A DNA stretch of 6,687 nucleotides, taken from positions 1 to 6,687 of the forward strand of contig CAMLGG010000282.1 in the NCBI GenBank assembly GCA_946479475.1, written 5' to 3'. How positions within the stretch are numbered: the first letter of the stretch is position 1; each line of letters begins with the position of its first letter. The DNA comes from an uncultured Ideonella sp. GTDB lineage: Bacteria; Pseudomonadota; Gammaproteobacteria; Burkholderiales; Burkholderiaceae. This document shows positions 1 to 6,687 of the stretch, one piece after another. The translations under genes were made by a program, and so were the position numbers. The notes under the pieces are model-generated. The model was given only the letters and a program-made list of their open reading frames with translations, searched no databases and had not been told where the DNA came from.

Positions 1-150
1 TGGGCCCCCCCCGCGGGGTTTCCCTCTCCGTTATGGCGGCCTCACACAACAACCCCAACCCCGGGGGGGGGGTGTCGTTGGGGGGGGCTTTTTGGGCTTG
101 CCCACCCCCCGGGGGGCCGCGGGTCCCGGGCGCCCACGCCACTTTCAGAG
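1..150. other. Homopolymer-rich G/C stretch, probable low-quality contig end
   Basis: This stretch is dominated by runs of a single base: C8 at 5-12, G10 at 63-72, G8 at 80-87 and C6 followed by G6 at 105-116. The rest of the window shows normal codon-structured sequence and no comparable density of runs. An open frame in phase with the downstream dehydrogenase continues up to a TTG at 92, but its translation is Gly/Pro/Arg-rich and does not resemble the start of any aldehyde dehydrogenase. No promoter, RNA gene or upstream gene can be read here. Base-call or assembly error is the simplest explanation, so the true upstream region of the operon is probably not represented. Confidence 0.6.
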
Positions 151-151
151 G
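147..151 (+). promoter_or_regulatory. Ribosome binding site that decides the aldehyde dehydrogenase start
   Basis: AGAGG ends nine bases before the ATG at 161, which is normal Shine-Dalgarno spacing. Another in-frame ATG at 152 directly abuts AGAGG and has no usable spacing. The site therefore favours the start at 161 over 152 or the TTG at 92. Confidence 0.6.
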
Positions 152-160
152 ATGACCTCC

Positions 161-1648
161 ATGTCCACCATCAACTGGGCCGAACGCGCCACCTCCCTGC
201 GATTCGACGGGCGCAGCGTGATCGATGGCAAGCGCGTCGAAGCTGCCGACGGCCAGACCTTCGACAAGCGCTCGCCGATCGACAACCGGCTGCTCGGCCC
301 GGTGGCCCGCGGCCAGGCCGCCGACGTCGACGCGGCGGTGCGCAGCGCCCGCGCCGCCTTCGAGGATCGCCGCTGGGCCGGCAAGTCGCCCGCGGCGCGC
401 AAGAAGGCCTTGCAGCGCTTCGCCGACAAGATCCTGGCCGCCAAGGAAGAACTGGCCCTGCTCGAGACGCTGGACATGGGCAAGCCCATCCAGTACTCGC
501 TCAGCGTGGACGTTCCCTCGACCGCCCGCACCATCGCCTGGTATGCCGAGGCCGTCGACAAGATCTACGACGAGATCGCGCCCACCCCGGACTCGGCCCT
601 GGCTCTCATCACCCGCGAGCCCATGGGCGTGATCGGCGCGATCGTGCCCTGGAACTACCCGATGATCATGGCAGCCTGGAAGCTCGGGCCGGCGCTGGCC
701 GCCGGCAACTCGGTGGTGCTCAAGCCGAGCGAGAAGAGCCCCTACACCGCCCTGCGGCTGGCCGAGCTGGCCGTCGAGGCCGGCCTCCCGCCCGGGGTGT
801 TCAACGTGGTGCCCGGCTATGGGCACGAGGCGGGCGAGGCGCTGGCCCTGCACATGGAGGTCGATGCGATCGGCTTCACCGGGTCCACCCGCGTGGGCCG
901 CCGCATGCTGGATTACTCGGGCCGAAGCAACCTCAAGCGCGTCTACAACGAGCTCGGCGGCAAGTCGGCCTTCGTGGTGTTCGACGATTTCGCCGACATC
1001 GAGCGCGCCGCCCGCACCGTGGCCGGCAGCATGTTCTTCAACCAGGGCGAGAGCTGCAACGCGCCCTCGCGCATCCTGGTGCAGGCCGGCATTGCGGACG
1101 AGTTCGCCAGGCTCGTGGCCGCCGAGGCGCCCAAGTACGCGCCGGGGGATCCTCTGGACGCCACCACCGAGCTCGGCGCCCTCGTCGACGAGACGCAACT
1201 GCGCACCGTGCTGAGCTACATCGACGCGGGCCACCAGGAGGGCGCCCAGGTGCTGGCCGGTGGCCGCCAGGCGCGTGCGGAGACAGGCGGCTACTACGTC
1301 GAGCCGACCGTCTTCACCGGCGTCGACAATGGCATGAAGATCGCCCGCGAGGAGATCTTCGGCCCGGTGGTCGGCGTGATCCGCTTCGAGACCGAGGCCG
1401 AGGGCATCGCGCTGGCCAACAACTCTTCCTATGGCCTGCAGGCGAGCGTCTGGAGCGACAACATCAACCGCGCGCATCGGGTCGCTCGGGCCCTGCGTGC
1501 GGGCACGGTCCATGTCAACCAGTACGACGAGGACGACCTCACGGTGCCCTTCGGTGGCTACAAGCAGAGCGGCAACGGGCGCGACAAGTCGCTGCACGCC
1601 TTCGACAAGTACACCGAACTGAAGACGACCTGGATCCGGATCGACTGA
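161..1648 (+). CDS. PuuC-like NAD(P)-dependent aldehyde dehydrogenase
   Basis: This 495-residue protein is a full-length member of the aldehyde dehydrogenase superfamily, which oxidises aldehydes to carboxylates with NAD(P)+ in the cytoplasm. Seen in the sequence, numbered from the ATG at 161: the PWN motif with Asn165, Lys188 in KPSEKSP, the GFTGSTRVG nucleotide-binding turn, general-base Glu264 in ELGGKS, and the catalytic nucleophile Cys299 in GESCNAP. The C-terminal segment FGGYKQSGNGRDKSLHA and the following TELKTTWI closely match E. coli PuuC as I recall it, also about 495 residues. PuuC oxidises gamma-glutamyl-gamma-aminobutyraldehyde in putrescine degradation. The neighbouring gamma-glutamyl ligase family gene supports a gamma-glutamylated aldehyde substrate. 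That ligase is not a typical PuuA, so the true substrate may differ from putrescine's intermediate; other amine-derived aldehydes are possible. The family call is near certain and the substrate is inferred. Confidence 0.93.
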   Translation: MSTINWAERATSLRFDGRSVIDGKRVEAADGQTFDKRSPIDNRLLGPVARGQAADVDAAVRSARAAFEDRRWAGKSPAARKKALQRFADKILAAKEELALLETLDMGKPIQYSLSVDVPSTARTIAWYAEAVDKIYDEIAPTPDSALALITREPMGVIGAIVPWNYPMIMAAWKLGPALAAGNSVVLKPSEKSPYTALRLAELAVEAGLPPGVFNVVPGYGHEAGEALALHMEVDAIGFTGSTRVGRRMLDYSGRSNLKRVYNELGGKSAFVVFDDFADIERAARTVAGSMFFNQGESCNAPSRILVQAGIADEFARLVAAEAPKYAPGDPLDATTELGALVDETQLRTVLSYIDAGHQEGAQVLAGGRQARAETGGYYVEPTVFTGVDNGMKIAREEIFGPVVGVIRFETEAEGIALANNSSYGLQASVWSDNINRAHRVARALRAGTVHVNQYDEDDLTVPFGGYKQSGNGRDKSLHAFDKYTELKTTWIRID

Positions 1649-1650
1649 TG
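1646..1650 (+). promoter_or_regulatory. TGATG stop/start overlap coupling two genes
   Basis: The dehydrogenase stop TGA (1646-1648) and the ligase ATG (1648-1650) share one base. With no clear Shine-Dalgarno upstream, terminating ribosomes probably reinitiate here, giving matched expression of the two enzymes. Confidence 0.75.
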
Positions 1651-2979
1651 GTGGATCTCCAGCAGCGGCTCGCCGCGCAGGGCGTGCACACCGTGCTCGC
1701 TCAGTTCACCGACATGCACGGCGTGGCCAAGGGCAAGTACCTGCCCCTGTCCAAGCTGCCGGAGTTGATCGAGACCGGTGCCGGCTTCGCCGGCCCCTCG
1801 ATCTGGGGCACGGCCTTGCCGCGCACCGGGCCGAGGGCCGAGTACTACGCGCGAGCGGATGCCGGGCGTATCCAGCCCATGCCCTGGATGCCCGGCTACG
1901 CCCGTGCCGTGTGCAGCGGGTACGTCGATGGGCAGCCCTTCGAAGCCTGCCCCCGCCAGGTGCTGCAGCGGGCCACGGGCCGCCTGGCCGAGCGCGGCTG
2001 GACCCTCAAGACAGGCATAGAGCCGGAGTTCTTCCTTCTCAAAAACGAAGGCGATCGCTGGCTGCCGGCGGACGACGCCGACCGGCTGGACAAGCCGTCC
2101 TACGACCTGAAATCGCTGCCGCGCCAGGCGGATTTCCTCCACGCGCTGCACCAGGCCCTGGCCCAGTGCGGGCTGGACGTGCTGCAGCTGGACCACGAGG
2201 ATGCGCACGGCCAGTACGAAGTCAATTTCGCCTTCGACGAGGCGCTGGCCAGCGCCGATCACCTGATGCTGTTCAAGCTCGCCGCCCAGGCGCTGGCCGA
2301 GCAGCACGGTGCGGTCTTCTCCATGATGCCCAAGCCCTTCGCCAACCAGCCGGGCAGCGGGCTTCACTTCCACGTCTCGATGTGGGAGGCGTCCGGCCGC
2401 TGCGTCTTCACGCCGGCCGACCAGAGCGGTCCCGCGCTCCTGTCGCCCCTGGGCCGCCAGTTCCTGGCCGGCGTGCTCGCCCATTCGCCGGCGCTGTGCG
2501 CCCTCGCCGCGCCGACGGTGAACAGCTACAAGCGCCTGGTGGTCGGCGAGTCGCTTTCGGGCACCAGCTGGGCACCCGCCTACATCGCCCACGGGCCGAA
2601 CAACCGCACCGCCACGTTGAGGACCCTGCCCGGGCGCTTCGAATGGCGGCTGCCCGATGCCAGCGCCAATCCATACCTCGCGACCGCGGCCCTGATCGCC
2701 GCCGGCCTGGACGGCATCGACCGGGGCCTGGACCCGGGTCCCGACTGCACTGAAGACCTGTTCAGGCTTTCGCTTCGCGAAGTGCGCGAGCGCGGCCACG
2801 GGCTGCTCCCTCAGTCGCTGGAGCAGGCCATCGAGGCGCTGGAGGCCGACGAGGTCGTCCGTGCGGCACTGGGAGACACCCTCGCCAGTGAATTCATCCG
2901 TTTGAAGCGCATGGAGTGGGTGGAGTACGCCCGGCACGTGAGCGACTGGGAGCTGCGGCGCTACGCAGCCGCCTTCTGA
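1648..2979 (+). CDS. glnT: Type III (GlnT-type) glutamine synthetase family ligase, possibly a gamma-glutamylamide synthetase
   Basis: This 443-residue cytoplasmic enzyme belongs to the glutamine synthetase superfamily, which ligates ammonia or an amine to the gamma-carboxyl of glutamate using ATP. Visible active-site elements are Glu125 and Glu127 in IEPEFFLL, metal-ligand glutamates Glu184 and Glu191 in HEDAHGQYEVNF, His240 and His242 in GSGLHFHVS, NSYKRL, Arg320 in GPNNRTATLR, and Arg330/Glu332/Arg334 in RFEWRLPDASANPY. The N-terminal GAGFAG and PWMPGYARAV segments resemble the GlnT (type III) branch, which also holds gamma-glutamylmethylamide synthetases. The Tyr-containing adenylylation loop of classical GlnA (NLYDLPPEE) is absent, so GlnE-type control is unlikely. 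The ATG shares its A with the dehydrogenase stop (TGATG) and no good Shine-Dalgarno precedes it, which points to translational coupling. Co-expression with a PuuC-like enzyme makes glutamylation of an amine more likely than housekeeping glutamine synthesis. The amine cannot be read from sequence. Confidence 0.9.
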   Translation: MVDLQQRLAAQGVHTVLAQFTDMHGVAKGKYLPLSKLPELIETGAGFAGPSIWGTALPRTGPRAEYYARADAGRIQPMPWMPGYARAVCSGYVDGQPFEACPRQVLQRATGRLAERGWTLKTGIEPEFFLLKNEGDRWLPADDADRLDKPSYDLKSLPRQADFLHALHQALAQCGLDVLQLDHEDAHGQYEVNFAFDEALASADHLMLFKLAAQALAEQHGAVFSMMPKPFANQPGSGLHFHVSMWEASGRCVFTPADQSGPALLSPLGRQFLAGVLAHSPALCALAAPTVNSYKRLVVGESLSGTSWAPAYIAHGPNNRTATLRTLPGRFEWRLPDASANPYLATAALIAAGLDGIDRGLDPGPDCTEDLFRLSLREVRERGHGLLPQSLEQAIEALEADEVVRAALGDTLASEFIRLKRMEWVEYARHVSDWELRRYAAAF

Positions 2980-2992
2980 TCGCGCGTCGCCG

Positions 2993-3925
2993 GTGACGAC
3001 CCGCGAACCCTCGGGCGGAGAGCGCCCACACGTTCCCTGGCTGGCCTACGGCTGCCTGGCACTCAGCATGACGCTGGTGGGCAGCTACGTCGGACTGTCG
3101 CGCTCGCTGGTCGCGGTGTTTCCCGTGTTCCTGCTGGCCTGGCTGCGCTTCGGCATCGCGGCGCTGGCCATGCTGGGCTGGGTCCGGCGCCGGCCCGAGG
3201 AGCCGCGGCTGTCGCGCCATGACCGCTGGCTGCTGTTCTGGGAGAGCTTCCTCGGCAACTTCCTGTTCTCGATCTGCATGCTCTTCGGCGTGGCCGCCAC
3301 CTCGGCGGTCGCGGCCGGCGTGGTGATGGCCGGCATCCCGGCGGCCGTCGCTGTTCAGTCCTGGCTGTTCCTCGGGGAGCGAATCGGCTGGCGAGTGGGC
3401 AGCGGCATCGCGTGCGCGGTGATCGGCATCGCCTGGTTGGCCGTGGCGAGGTCGGGAACGGCCGGAGCGAGCGCCGGCGAGCCGCTCTGGGGCTACGCCC
3501 TGCTGCTCGGGGCGGTGGTCTGCGAGGCGGCCTACGTGGTGATCGGCAAGCGTCTGACCGCGCAGGTTTCCCCGCGCCGGATCAGCGCCCTCATCAACCT
3601 GTGGGGGCTGGTGCTGGTCACGCCGCTCGGCGTTTGGCAGGCGCTGCGCTTCGACTTCACGGCCGTAGGCGCACCCACCTGCGGCTTGCTCGTGTTCTAC
3701 GCGCTGGCCGCCAGCATGGTCACCGTGTGGCTGTGGATGCGCGGACTGCAGCACGTGCCCGCGCCGCGAGCAGGCGTGTTCAGCGTGCTGCTGCCGGTGG
3801 CAGCCACGTTCGTGGGGGTGATCTTTCTCGGAGAGAGCCTCGACACGCCCCAAGTAGGGGCCCTGATCCTTTCACTCGCAGGATTGCTCCTGGCCACGGC
3901 GCCATACCACACAACTGCCAAGTAA
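2993..3925 (+). CDS. EamA/DMT-family inner-membrane transporter
   Basis: This is a 310-residue integral membrane protein of the drug/metabolite transporter superfamily, with two tandem EamA-type halves. About ten hydrophobic segments can be seen, roughly at residues 15-34, 38-64, 79-100, 101-126, 134-150, 164-183, 196-215, 226-246, 257-280 and 286-303. The first half ends in the family-typical LGE (Glu129) after helix 4, and the second repeats it as LGE (Glu281) after helix 9. The GTG at 2993, 13 bases after the ligase stop, is preferred because it keeps helix 1 and a short charged N-terminus. There is no clear Shine-Dalgarno, and the first ATG (3068) would cut into helix 1. DMT proteins move small metabolites such as amino acids and amines, often as exporters. 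Its place after the ligase suggests a role with the substrate or product of that pathway, but direction and cargo are unknown. Confidence 0.88.
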   Translation: MTTREPSGGERPHVPWLAYGCLALSMTLVGSYVGLSRSLVAVFPVFLLAWLRFGIAALAMLGWVRRRPEEPRLSRHDRWLLFWESFLGNFLFSICMLFGVAATSAVAAGVVMAGIPAAVAVQSWLFLGERIGWRVGSGIACAVIGIAWLAVARSGTAGASAGEPLWGYALLLGAVVCEAAYVVIGKRLTAQVSPRRISALINLWGLVLVTPLGVWQALRFDFTAVGAPTCGLLVFYALAASMVTVWLWMRGLQHVPAPRAGVFSVLLPVAATFVGVIFLGESLDTPQVGALILSLAGLLLATAPYHTTAK

Positions 3926-4009
3926 CGCGATAGCGAACTCGGGCATTGAGCGTTTTTGTCACAAGGGGGGCCCTTAGCATCCGCCCGCTTTTGCCGACCA
4001 ACCGCCCTT
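3926..4009. other. 84-base intergenic gap before the lipoprotein gene
   Basis: The gap is less GC-rich than its flanks and holds a T5 run at 3953-3957. A TTGTCA (3956-3961) is close to a sigma-70 -35 box, but no acceptable -10 box lies 16-18 bases beyond it. A five-pair stem AAGGG/CCCTT with a GGG loop (3963-3975) is too weak and lacks a following T tract, so it is not a convincing terminator. No Shine-Dalgarno is visible before the ATG at 4010. The gap probably contains the start of a separate transcription unit, but I cannot point to its promoter. Confidence 0.4.
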
Positions 4010-6687
4010 ATGCAGACCAAAGCCCTCCTCCACCGCCTCCCGCACCGCCAGCTCCTGGCGGCCATCCTGTCCGCCCTGCTGGTTTCCTGCGGGGGTGGTG
4101 GTGGAGGAGCGGCCGGCACGGATGCCGGCACGCCGCCTGCAGCCGACGGTGGTTCCGGGGATTCCGGCGGGGCCGGCTCGGGTGGTAGCACCGACACTGG
4201 CGGTGGCACCGACACGGGCGGTGGCACCGATACGGGCGGTGGCACCGATACGGGCGGCACCGGCGGCTCCGGCGGAACGACCCCGCCGCCGTCCGGCGAA
4301 GAATCACAGGCCGACGGCCTTGCCCAGAACTGGTCGGACCCGAAGACCTGGGGGGGCACGCTCCCGCCGGCAGGTTCCGCGGTCGTCATTCCCGCCGGCA
4401 AGACCGTGGTGCTCGACACCATGACGAAGGATCTCGGTGACGTGCGTGTCGAAGGCACGCTGAAGTTCAGTGACACGCAGGACGTTGCTCTTTCGGCGAC
4501 CTCGCTCACCGTCACCGGCACCATCCAGGCCGGCTCGGTCGCCGCGCCGTTCACGCACCGGGGCACCATCACCCTCACCGGCCAGCCGGCCGGCACCAAC
4601 GACGGTGTCTCCCGCGGCCTGCGGGTGATCGGCGGCAAGCTGCTGCTCTACGCGGCCACGCCCCGGCCGGTCTGGACCAAGCTGAACCAGAACGCCGATG
4701 CGGGCGCCAAGCAGCTGACCCTGAAGGAATCCACCAACTGGAAGGCCGGCGACCAGATCGTCGTGGCGCCGACCGACCACTACGGGCTTTCCGAATCGCA
4801 GAGCCTCACGCTCGCCTCGGCCAGCGGCTCGACCGTGACCGCCACGGCCGGCCTGGGCAAGTCGCGCTGGGGCCGCCTGCAGTACCCCACCAGCACCGGC
4901 CTCTCGCTGACCCAGGACACCGGCTACAAGCCGCAGGCCACGCCGGCGCCGACGGTGCTGGACGAGCGCGCAGCCGTCGGCAACCTGAGCCGCCGCATCG
5001 TCATCGAGGGCGCCGACGACAGCGCCTGGCGCACCAAGGGCTTCGGCGCCCACGTCATGGTCATGGGCCTGAAATCCCAGGTCCAGATCGACGGGGTCGA
5101 GTTCCGACGCGTCGGCCAGGCGGGCGCCCTCGCCCGCTACCCCTTCCACTGGCACATGCTCAGCTACAACGTGGACACCGGAGCCTATCTCGGCGACGCC
5201 ACGGGGCACTTCCTGCGCAACAGCGCCATCTGGAGTTCGGCGAACCGCTGCGTGGTGATCCACGCCACCAACGGCGTGACGGTGCAGAACAACATCTGCT
5301 ACGACATCAAGGGCCACGCCTTCTTCCTGGAGGACGCGGTCGAGCGGCGCAACGTGCTCGACGGGAACCTGGCGCTCAAGACCCGCTCCCCGGCGCCGGA
5401 GAATCTCCTGAAGATCCACGAAGGGCCGGACGTCTTCCAGGGCGGCCCCTCGGGCTTCTGGATCACCAACCCCGACAACACCGTCACCAACAACCTGGCC
5501 GGCGACTCGCAGGGCAACGGCATCTGGCTGTCCTTCCCGCTCAAGCCCCTGGGCCTGTCGCGCAAGGTCAACCTGTGGCCGCGCTACACGCCGCTCAAGC
5601 AGGTCGAGAACAACACGGTCCACACCTCGCGCGGCCCCGGCATCATGCTGGAGTGGGTGCCGGTGGACGACGACGTCGAGCATCCGGAGCAGACGCTGGG
5701 CTCCATTGCATCGCAGCGCTACGTGCCCATGAGGGACGGCAAGGCCTGCCTGGACGGCAACGGGCAGCCGTACGACTACTGCCCTGACGGCATGCTGCGC
5801 CTGACCCTCAAGCGCATCACCTCGTTCAAGAACAACGACGGCGCGTACCGCAACCGCGTCACCAATCCGGATTACCTGGAATGGGCGGTGGCGGACAACG
5901 TGGGCCTGGCCTTCGGCGGAGCGGCCCTGGACGGCACCATCCAACGCGGCCTGATGATCGGCACCAGCCTGAACCACAACGCCAACAAGTACCCCGCGGG
6001 CGCTTCCCTGCCGGCCGGCATCGCGACCTACCACTCGCTCGTGGGCCTGCTGAACAACACCTTCATCAGCTTCCCCTTCGTCGACGGCGCTACCAGCGGT
6101 GCGTTCAGCGCGGAGGACTACTACACCTCGGCGGTCGAGCGCGGCAAGGCCCGCAACAGCAACAACCGCCTGATCGCCAGTGCCGCGGGCTACCGCAACC
6201 TGCAGCCCGGCCTTCGCCAACACCACCTGCCGGCGGAGAACTGGGCCTTGGCCAGCGCGCTGTGGGATACCGAAGGCTTCTGGGGTCCCAAGGGCTGGTA
6301 CACCGTGCCGAACACGCCGTTCCTCACGATCGGTGCCAACTGTATCGACGCGCAACCTGCGGGTCGGAACGGTAAAACTTGCGAGGGCGAGTTTTACGGC
6401 ATCGAATCCATCCAGACGGACTTCGACTCCTCGCGATTCGAGTTCTCGGCGGCCATCAACGCGTCGCGCCAGGACAGCAACGGCAATGAAATCGCTTCTT
6501 GGCGGGTGGAAAACGGGTACAGCCACTATGTCAACAACGATGTGAATCGCCGGTATGCGTGTGATCAGGACATCACCCCCCCTCCGGGCAACTTCTGTTC
6601 CTGGGAGCTTGGATGGATGCGCCACTTCGCCGTCCGCCCCGACGGCCGCTATGTGATGAGCTTCCCCGGCTGGCCGGCGGCCAAGTG
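4010..6687 (+). CDS. G8-domain, CEMIP/TMEM2-like beta-helix lipoprotein (3' end outside window)
   Basis: The frame is open for 892 codons and runs off the window. Residues 1-27 form a lipoprotein signal peptide: basic/His N-region, LLAAILSALL core and lipobox LVSC with Cys27. The next residues are glycines, with no Asp at +2, which fits outer-membrane sorting. Residues 28-97 are a flexible Gly/Thr/Asp/Ser linker. A G8 domain spans about 108-215, starting NWSDPKTWGG, with PAGSAVVIPAG and GLRVIGGKL. From about 328 (RRIVIEG) comes a right-handed beta-helix core with YPFHWHM (His380, His382), GHAFFLED (His436, Glu441), GFWITNPDNTVTNN and GNGIWL. This order matches animal CEMIP and TMEM2, implicated in hyaluronan depolymerisation, and PKHD1L1. 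A surface polysaccharide-binding or cleaving role is inferred; activity is unproven. The ATG at 4010 is the only ATG giving a signal peptide, though no Shine-Dalgarno is seen. An in-frame TGA at 3947 limits any upstream start. Confidence 0.88.
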   Translation, partial: MQTKALLHRLPHRQLLAAILSALLVSCGGGGGGAAGTDAGTPPAADGGSGDSGGAGSGGSTDTGGGTDTGGGTDTGGGTDTGGTGGSGGTTPPPSGEESQADGLAQNWSDPKTWGGTLPPAGSAVVIPAGKTVVLDTMTKDLGDVRVEGTLKFSDTQDVALSATSLTVTGTIQAGSVAAPFTHRGTITLTGQPAGTNDGVSRGLRVIGGKLLLYAATPRPVWTKLNQNADAGAKQLTLKESTNWKAGDQIVVAPTDHYGLSESQSLTLASASGSTVTATAGLGKSRWGRLQYPTSTGLSLTQDTGYKPQATPAPTVLDERAAVGNLSRRIVIEGADDSAWRTKGFGAHVMVMGLKSQVQIDGVEFRRVGQAGALARYPFHWHMLSYNVDTGAYLGDATGHFLRNSAIWSSANRCVVIHATNGVTVQNNICYDIKGHAFFLEDAVERRNVLDGNLALKTRSPAPENLLKIHEGPDVFQGGPSGFWITNPDNTVTNNLAGDSQGNGIWLSFPLKPLGLSRKVNLWPRYTPLKQVENNTVHTSRGPGIMLEWVPVDDDVEHPEQTLGSIASQRYVPMRDGKACLDGNGQPYDYCPDGMLRLTLKRITSFKNNDGAYRNRVTNPDYLEWAVADNVGLAFGGAALDGTIQRGLMIGTSLNHNANKYPAGASLPAGIATYHSLVGLLNNTFISFPFVDGATSGAFSAEDYYTSAVERGKARNSNNRLIASAAGYRNLQPGLRQHHLPAENWALASALWDTEGFWGPKGWYTVPNTPFLTIGANCIDAQPAGRNGKTCEGEFYGIESIQTDFDSSRFEFSAAINASRQDSNGNEIASWRVENGYSHYVNNDVNRRYACDQDITPPPGNFCSWELGWMRHFAVRPDGRYVMSFPGWPAAK
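4190..4258 (+). repeat. 18-bp in-frame tandem repeat coding TDTGGG
   Basis: Three full copies and one 15-base copy of an 18-base unit (ACCGAYACKGGCGGTGGC, K = G or T, Y = C or T) encode residues 61-83 as repeats of Thr-Asp-Thr-Gly-Gly-Gly. Copies differ only at synonymous positions (GAC/GAT, ACT/ACG). The repeat sits in the linker between lipid anchor and G8 domain, where copy number can change without breaking a fold. Replication slippage is the likely origin. Confidence 0.9.
6372..6397 (+). repeat. Inverted repeat / strong stem-loop inside the lipoprotein gene
   Basis: The arms GTAAAACTTGC (6372-6382) and GCGAGTTTTAC (6387-6397) pair over 11 positions, with one T-G wobble, around a GAGG loop. 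Eight outer pairs are perfect. The element is in frame and encodes part of NGKTCEGEFYG around Cys791. No T tract follows, so it does not look like a Rho-independent terminator. Its role, if any, is unknown. Confidence 0.6.

Follow-up and report, generated by a model that had tools for sequence, protein, structure and literature searches.

Results and Discussion

A G8/CEMIP-core lipoprotein gene in an Ideonella contig

The window analyzed here is a 6,687-nucleotide stretch of DNA from an uncultured Ideonella sp. (assembly GCA_946479475.1, contig CAMLGG010000282.1, positions 1 to 6,687), and the gene under study lies at its 3' end, behind three genes on the same strand (Table 1). The frame 4010-6685(+) is stop-free through to the end of the window, and counting on the homologue P0013 places an estimated ~140 C-terminal residues of the protein outside it. 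The encoded protein is a member of the G8-CEMIP beta-helix superfamily. It had originally been predicted, from the sequence alone, to be a lipoprotein with a G8 domain and a CEMIP core, and both profiles match far above their Pfam cut-offs: G8 (PF10162) at 76.8 bits against 22.9, and CEMIP_beta-hel (PF24606) at 223.9 bits against 27.3, covering profile positions 1-209 of 212. The generic Beta_helix Pfam profile matches as well (E 8.9e-8). A lipobox ending in Cys27 is present as expected of a lipoprotein, and a loose lipobox pattern within residues 9-50 is found in 83 of 119 database homologues. The lipid anchor is followed by a linker rich in Gly, Thr, and Asp that is partly encoded by a tandem repeat, and residues 22-102 have a predicted local distance difference test score (pLDDT) below 50 in the predicted structure.

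Modeling yields a right-handed beta-helix, in agreement with the original prediction, and the best solved match by far is TMEM2 (8c6i); the G8 domain runs continuously into the helix in the model, as it does in 8c6i. Five sequence landmarks had been said to occur in the order seen in CEMIP, TMEM2, and PKHD1L1. All five are present in that order when compared with TMEM2, whose letters alone the comparison covers: WKAGDQIVVA (WKPGDQIVVA in TMEM2), LDERAAVG..RRIVIEG (VDMRAEVG..RNIVIQG), YPFHWH (YPVHFH), GHAFFLED..RRN (GHCFFLED..QRN), and NPDNTVTNN (HPNNNLINN). A counterpart of TMEM2 'domain X' is present in the full-length homologue P0003, for which the model over residues 67..993 aligns with TMEM2 119..1161 (771 residues); at least 121 of the aligned residues lie past the end of the helix near 716, a part that the window holds only partly. 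A Foldseek comparison with viral models returned beta-helix proteins of phages and giant viruses and, as the best match, an unnamed 571-aa protein (E 4.3e-13).

Table 1. Features of the window and small partner genes at related loci (L numbers denote loci; residue numbers refer to the window protein unless TMEM2 is named)
Feature	Position	Strand	Evidence or remark
G8/CEMIP-core lipoprotein gene	4010..6687	+	892 codons visible; 3' end beyond window
Signal peptide and lipobox LVS-C27	4010..4090	+	sequence; C27 codon 4088-4090
18-bp tandem repeat, partly encoding the linker after the lipid anchor	4179-4257	+	Tandem Repeats Finder (TRF)
G8 domain, residues 113-226, first beta-helix turns	4346..4687	+	PF10162, E 1.7e-21
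Site of the TMEM2 GG/lectin-like insert, W222 to W244	4676..4738	+	alignment; 21 residues here
CEMIP-type beta-helix, residues 344-542	5039..5635	+	PF24606, E 2.5e-66; 8c6i, E 2e-34
Conserved H348, Y377-x-x-H380-x-H382	5051..5155	+	TMEM2 H519, Y547, H550, H552
Conserved R413, H418, H436, E441, D442, E445	5246..5344	+	TMEM2 R580, H585, H603, E608, D609, E612
Start of C-terminal region, approximately TMEM2 'domain X'	6275..6685	+	approximate boundary; model alignment reaches TMEM2 1054
Aldehyde dehydrogenase	152..1648	+	PuuC-like, score under PuuC cut-off
Type III glutamate--ammonia ligase	1648..2979	+	TIGR03105, 499.3 bits vs cut-off 469.6
EamA/DMT transporter	2993..3925	+	Pfam
Partner A, small anchored protein	L001:12775-13203; L035:8138-8488; L038:11311-11640; L039:7721-8101; L040:11661-12062; L044:7376-7816		
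Partner B, small His-rich protein	L041:7201-7707; L042:11048-11602; L047:11927-12484; L049:11764-12294		unrelated to A; 4-bp overlaps

Conservation of residues shared with TMEM2

TMEM2 residues were numbered as the chain index plus 82, a value taken from the tag length; as a check, Cys554, described as a free cysteine (PMC10206443), lands on the Cys of FHLC. The window protein and 8c6i agree at 115 of 303 aligned core positions. A list of 33 shared residues was chosen for matching TMEM2; the unbiased test is the comparison of invariant columns. Of 69 columns that can be aligned to TMEM2 and show no variation among 30 bacterial sequences, 38 have the same residue in TMEM2; for the remaining columns the figure is 77 of 234 (Fisher p 0.0011).

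Among 161 aligned homologues, H348 is conserved in 156, Y377 in 159, E441 in 157, and H380, H382, H418, H436, and E445 in 158 each, as are R328 in 160, N453 in 161, and H538 in 151; because 119 of the 161 are the window protein's best-scoring relatives, at least 49% identical where a figure is given, their agreement counts less, and a second set of 43 sequences that reaches out to planctomycetes and other remote members (23-29% identity) is the better test. In that set Y377 and H380 are kept in 40 sequences, H382, H436, E441, and E445 in 39 each, and H348 and H418 in 38, two faulty rows (L006, a wrong-strand frame, and L011, truncated) having been left in the counts. Other positions vary in distant members, with R447 conserved in 22, D432 in 21, N421 in 25, and W506 in 28 of the 43. 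In the model, DSSP analysis puts H348, H380/H382, H418, and the strand preceding E441 in equivalent places on successive rungs, an order that suggests that the conserved residues form a ladder along one face of the helix.

Absence of the lectin-like domains

The CEMIP-type insert had been thought to be missing from the bacterial protein, with about 110 residues between G8 and the beta-helix; in fact 117 residues separate the G8 match, which ends at 226, from the PF24606 match, which starts at 344, and the absence was confirmed. In TMEM2 the GG lectin-like domain comprises residues 220-387 (PMC10276149) and lies between the G8 strands and the WKPGDQIVVA motif. The corresponding site holds at most 43 residues in 161 of 161 homologues, compared with ~170 in TMEM2. 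A second, C-terminal lectin-like domain has no counterpart in P0003, since the alignment ends at the last residue of P0003, at TMEM2 1161; TMEM2 is resolved up to residue 1381 (PMC10206443). Hyaluronan degradation is reported to be lost upon substitution of R187 in CEMIP and of R265, D273, or D286, or upon the H248/A303 double change, in mouse TMEM2, and all of these positions are inside the GG domain (PMC10276149). Membership of the window protein in the hyaluronidase subfamily is thus not shown by these comparisons, the lectin-like domains being missing; hyaluronan depolymerization, which would need an assay, is contested even for human TMEM2.

Distribution of the family

A protein search scored 7992 candidates, of which 632 were homologues at E <= 1e-3; the 12 closest full-length homologues are 930-1020 aa long and 69-77% identical. 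PF24606 is present in all of the best 120 of the 632, and G8 in every one except P0013, which is shorter; those that are named come from Burkholderiales and related bacteria. Around G001, a Burkholderiales metagenome-assembled genome (MAG) that contains locus L001, PF24606 was detected in 3/16 genomes of the genus, 11/399 of the family, 3/399 of the order, and 3/200 of the phylum. In the phylum of Meiothermus it occurs in 39 of 111 genomes (38 above cut-off), and proteins from that phylum reach 205 bits in the TMEM2-core score, compared with 141 for the window protein. Some genomes encode multiple PF24606 copies. The bacterial family is neither rare nor without a name, its members being entered in public records as 'G8 domain-containing protein', and the window protein is ordinary among them. 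Bacterial G8 domains had been described in the original prediction as a known family of essentially undescribed function, and no function was found in print. A search of the open-access literature, with subscription papers outside its reach, returned neither mutagenesis of beta-helix residues nor any work on a bacterial G8/CEMIP protein.

We also observed a G8/CEMIP-core gene on the 283-kb Vitreoscilla filiformis plasmid NZ_CP022424.1 (apparently L036, G573:C2) and weaker matches in eight more plasmid records. In L086 and L087 (G1058), several G8/CEMIP-core genes lie close by each other, and L087 additionally encodes a TpsB-like transporter and a YadA-like adhesin.

Genomic context and partner genes

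The order of aldehyde dehydrogenase, type III glutamine synthetase, and EamA genes ahead of the G8 gene was found in L001 and L035 only, among 21 loci compared. Genes upstream in L001 resemble a polyamine-type ABC transporter, as judged by eye, and positions 1-140 of the window contain C and G runs ahead of the dehydrogenase start that resemble a poor contig end. As a possible clue to substrate, the genes of 41 G8 loci were clustered, and Pfam was run on 29 proteins that were adjacent or recurrent, including the two partners treated below. A match was obtained for 22 of the 29, mostly to housekeeping or metabolic proteins such as aconitases, DNA ligase, succinyl-CoA ligase, valyl-tRNA synthetase, and parts of ABC transporters. 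In L041, the G8 gene is immediately preceded, on its own strand, by a pectate-lyase/epimerase-like gene (PF12708; L041:10793-12775), and it is possible that this second beta-helix enzyme and the G8 gene form one operon.

A small gene follows the G8 gene in some loci, encoding partner A in 6 of 41 and partner B in 4 of 41 (tblastn E 1e-5); in the window itself the contig stretch ends within the G8 gene, and the downstream partner position lies outside. The idea that partner A stands behind every G8 gene was rejected on these counts, and neither partner was found in one set of 20 loci (0/20). If the nearest start codon is used, stop and start overlap by 1 or 4 bases in 9 of the 10 partner loci, and partner A begins at or inside the G8 stop codon in five of six. 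The six partner A sequences share five invariant Cys residues. Three sequences each of partners A and B were scanned, and none reached the cut-off of a Pfam or NCBIfam model. For partner A, 153 homologues were found at E <= 1e-3; none of the best 120 has a Pfam domain, and every name given, with one exception, is 'hypothetical protein'. Eight of these 120 agree exactly with a listed G8 homologue in the length of the longest contig (shifted controls: mean 0.275, max 2), including P0134 with P0002 and P0148 with P0003, both G8 proteins being close to the window protein.

Across the 399 genomes, partner A was detected in 6 of 11 PF24606 carriers compared with 4 of 388 non-carriers, one of the four being weak (E 3.6e-4), and in two of the six carriers (G455 and G532) it does not adjoin the G8 gene. 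Of the 13 matches, in 10 of the 399 genomes, five come immediately after a G8 gene. A further six appear as lone genes with no G8 gene found nearby (L067, L068, L070-L073); of the remaining two, L069 begins inside the small gene and G001:C70 was outside the neighborhood check.

Proposed function

With somewhat less than even confidence, we propose that the window protein is a lipid-anchored carbohydrate-active enzyme of the cell surface or periplasm, built on the G8-CEMIP catalytic core that animals also use and dispensing with the lectin-like domains. Starting from the observed anchor motif, domains, predicted fold, and conservation, we infer catalysis, groove binding, and substrate as follows. 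The lipid anchor and flexible linker would tether the beta-helix at the surface or in the periplasm, and a polysaccharide chain would run along the concave side of the helix, where it would be cut internally. The candidate cutting center comprises H348, Y377, H380, H382, H418, H436, E441, and E445, with the two Glu, or a Glu and a His, serving as putative acid and base. Since the domain linked to hyaluronan degradation is missing from the protein, the target would be a bacterial or environmental exopolysaccharide and not hyaluronan, and the animal GG domain may be a later addition that captures hyaluronan. In some of the closest relatives the G8 gene would be translationally coupled to partner A, which may assist. 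CEMIP is reported to act on hyaluronan, and not on other glycosaminoglycans, in the manner of an endo-beta-N-acetylglucosaminidase (review, PMC6888145), which favors hydrolysis.

Several points weigh against an enzymatic role. The activity of TMEM2 itself is disputed: one study (PMC10206443) saw the purified human ectodomain neither bind nor cleave hyaluronan, another (PMC10474455) found robust cleavage by the purified human and mouse proteins, and a third (PMC10276149) found, in cells, an active mouse and an inactive human protein. The authors of the TMEM2 structure could not assign an active site and left its location an open question (PMC10206443), and the open-access literature yielded no activity of any bacterial G8/CEMIP member. 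No common polysaccharide locus surrounds the G8 genes in the 41 clustered loci and 29 scanned neighbors. TMEM2 departs from the bacterial sequences at 31 of the 69 invariant columns, and the close kinship of most of the 161 homologues lessens what their agreement can tell. Finally, five His, one Tyr, and two Glu exceed the needs of a simple hydrolase and could equally form a metal site.

A possible, though less probable, alternative is a non-catalytic surface protein for carbohydrate binding or adhesion, whose conserved residues hold sugar without cutting it. The inactive human ectodomain (PMC10206443) and the lack of a catabolic locus beside the bacterial genes examined are consistent with such a role; however, charged and His residues kept from planctomycetes to human suit catalysis better, and cleavage has been attributed both to purified human and mouse TMEM2 (PMC10474455) and to CEMIP-expressing cells (review, PMC6888145). 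A uronate lyase or C5-epimerase resembling AlgG/AlgE, with Tyr and His in acid-base roles, is unlikely. GH88/GH105 genes were found in 0 of 14 carrier genomes compared with 2 of 28 non-carriers, a test that addresses uronate-lyase catabolism and is uninformative on hydrolases, and this result lends the uronate-lyase route no support. Degradation of hyaluronan or another glycosaminoglycan for nutrition or host contact, in favor of which stands the name of the closest solved relative, cell surface hyaluronidase, is very improbable. The substitutions reported to abolish activity sit in the GG domain missing here (PMC10276149), none of the 14 carriers tested has GH88/GH105 genes, and a groundwater MAG, Meiothermus, and a mud isolate are among the carriers with names; the hyaluronan link is unsupported for the bacterial protein. 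Least probable of all is a NosD-kind beta-helix protein whose His ladder binds copper or another metal, as the NosD-type PF05048 profile scores 21.4 bits, under its Pfam cut-off of 23.6, the PF24606 and TMEM2 matches are far stronger, and no copper gene is among the scanned neighbors.

Returning to the anchored enzyme, we tentatively extend the proposal to its animal relatives. The bacterial protein may represent an ancestral-type core, in which case the shared His/Tyr/Glu ladder (TMEM2 H519, Y547, H550, H552, H585, H603, E608, and E612) would be the true CEMIP/TMEM2 active site, the GG domain would only capture hyaluronan, and some Burkholderiales cores would work with a co-translated five-Cys partner of an undescribed family. 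The cutting site of TMEM2 and CEMIP is disputed. The bacterial relative, far diverged in sequence and free of the lectin-like domains, offers a natural deletion and mutation experiment: the residues surviving in both make a short list of catalytic candidates open to direct mutagenesis in the human or mouse protein, and a bacterial core without lectin-like domains may be simpler to produce.

Comparison with known systems

The nearest counterparts are the bacterial G8 domain-containing proteins of Ideonella, Aquabacterium, Caldimonas, and the Vitreoscilla filiformis plasmid, with those of Meiothermus more distant, all of which have the same domains; the named Burkholderiales proteins are ~50-75% identical to the window protein and differ from it in no essential respect. 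With the animal hyaluronan-depolymerizing proteins TMEM2/CEMIP2 and CEMIP (HYBID, KIAA1199), the comparison covering TMEM2 alone, the protein shares a G8 domain merging into the beta-helix, the CEMIP beta-helix itself, domain X, and the His/Tyr/Glu/Asn set. It differs in being a bacterial lipoprotein without the GG insert, and the last ~220 residues of TMEM2, with the second lectin-like domain, have no counterpart in P0003. The mannuronan C5-epimerases AlgG/AlgE and the lyase RbmB also act on acidic polysaccharides with a right-handed beta-helix, a likeness drawn from the overall fold alone.
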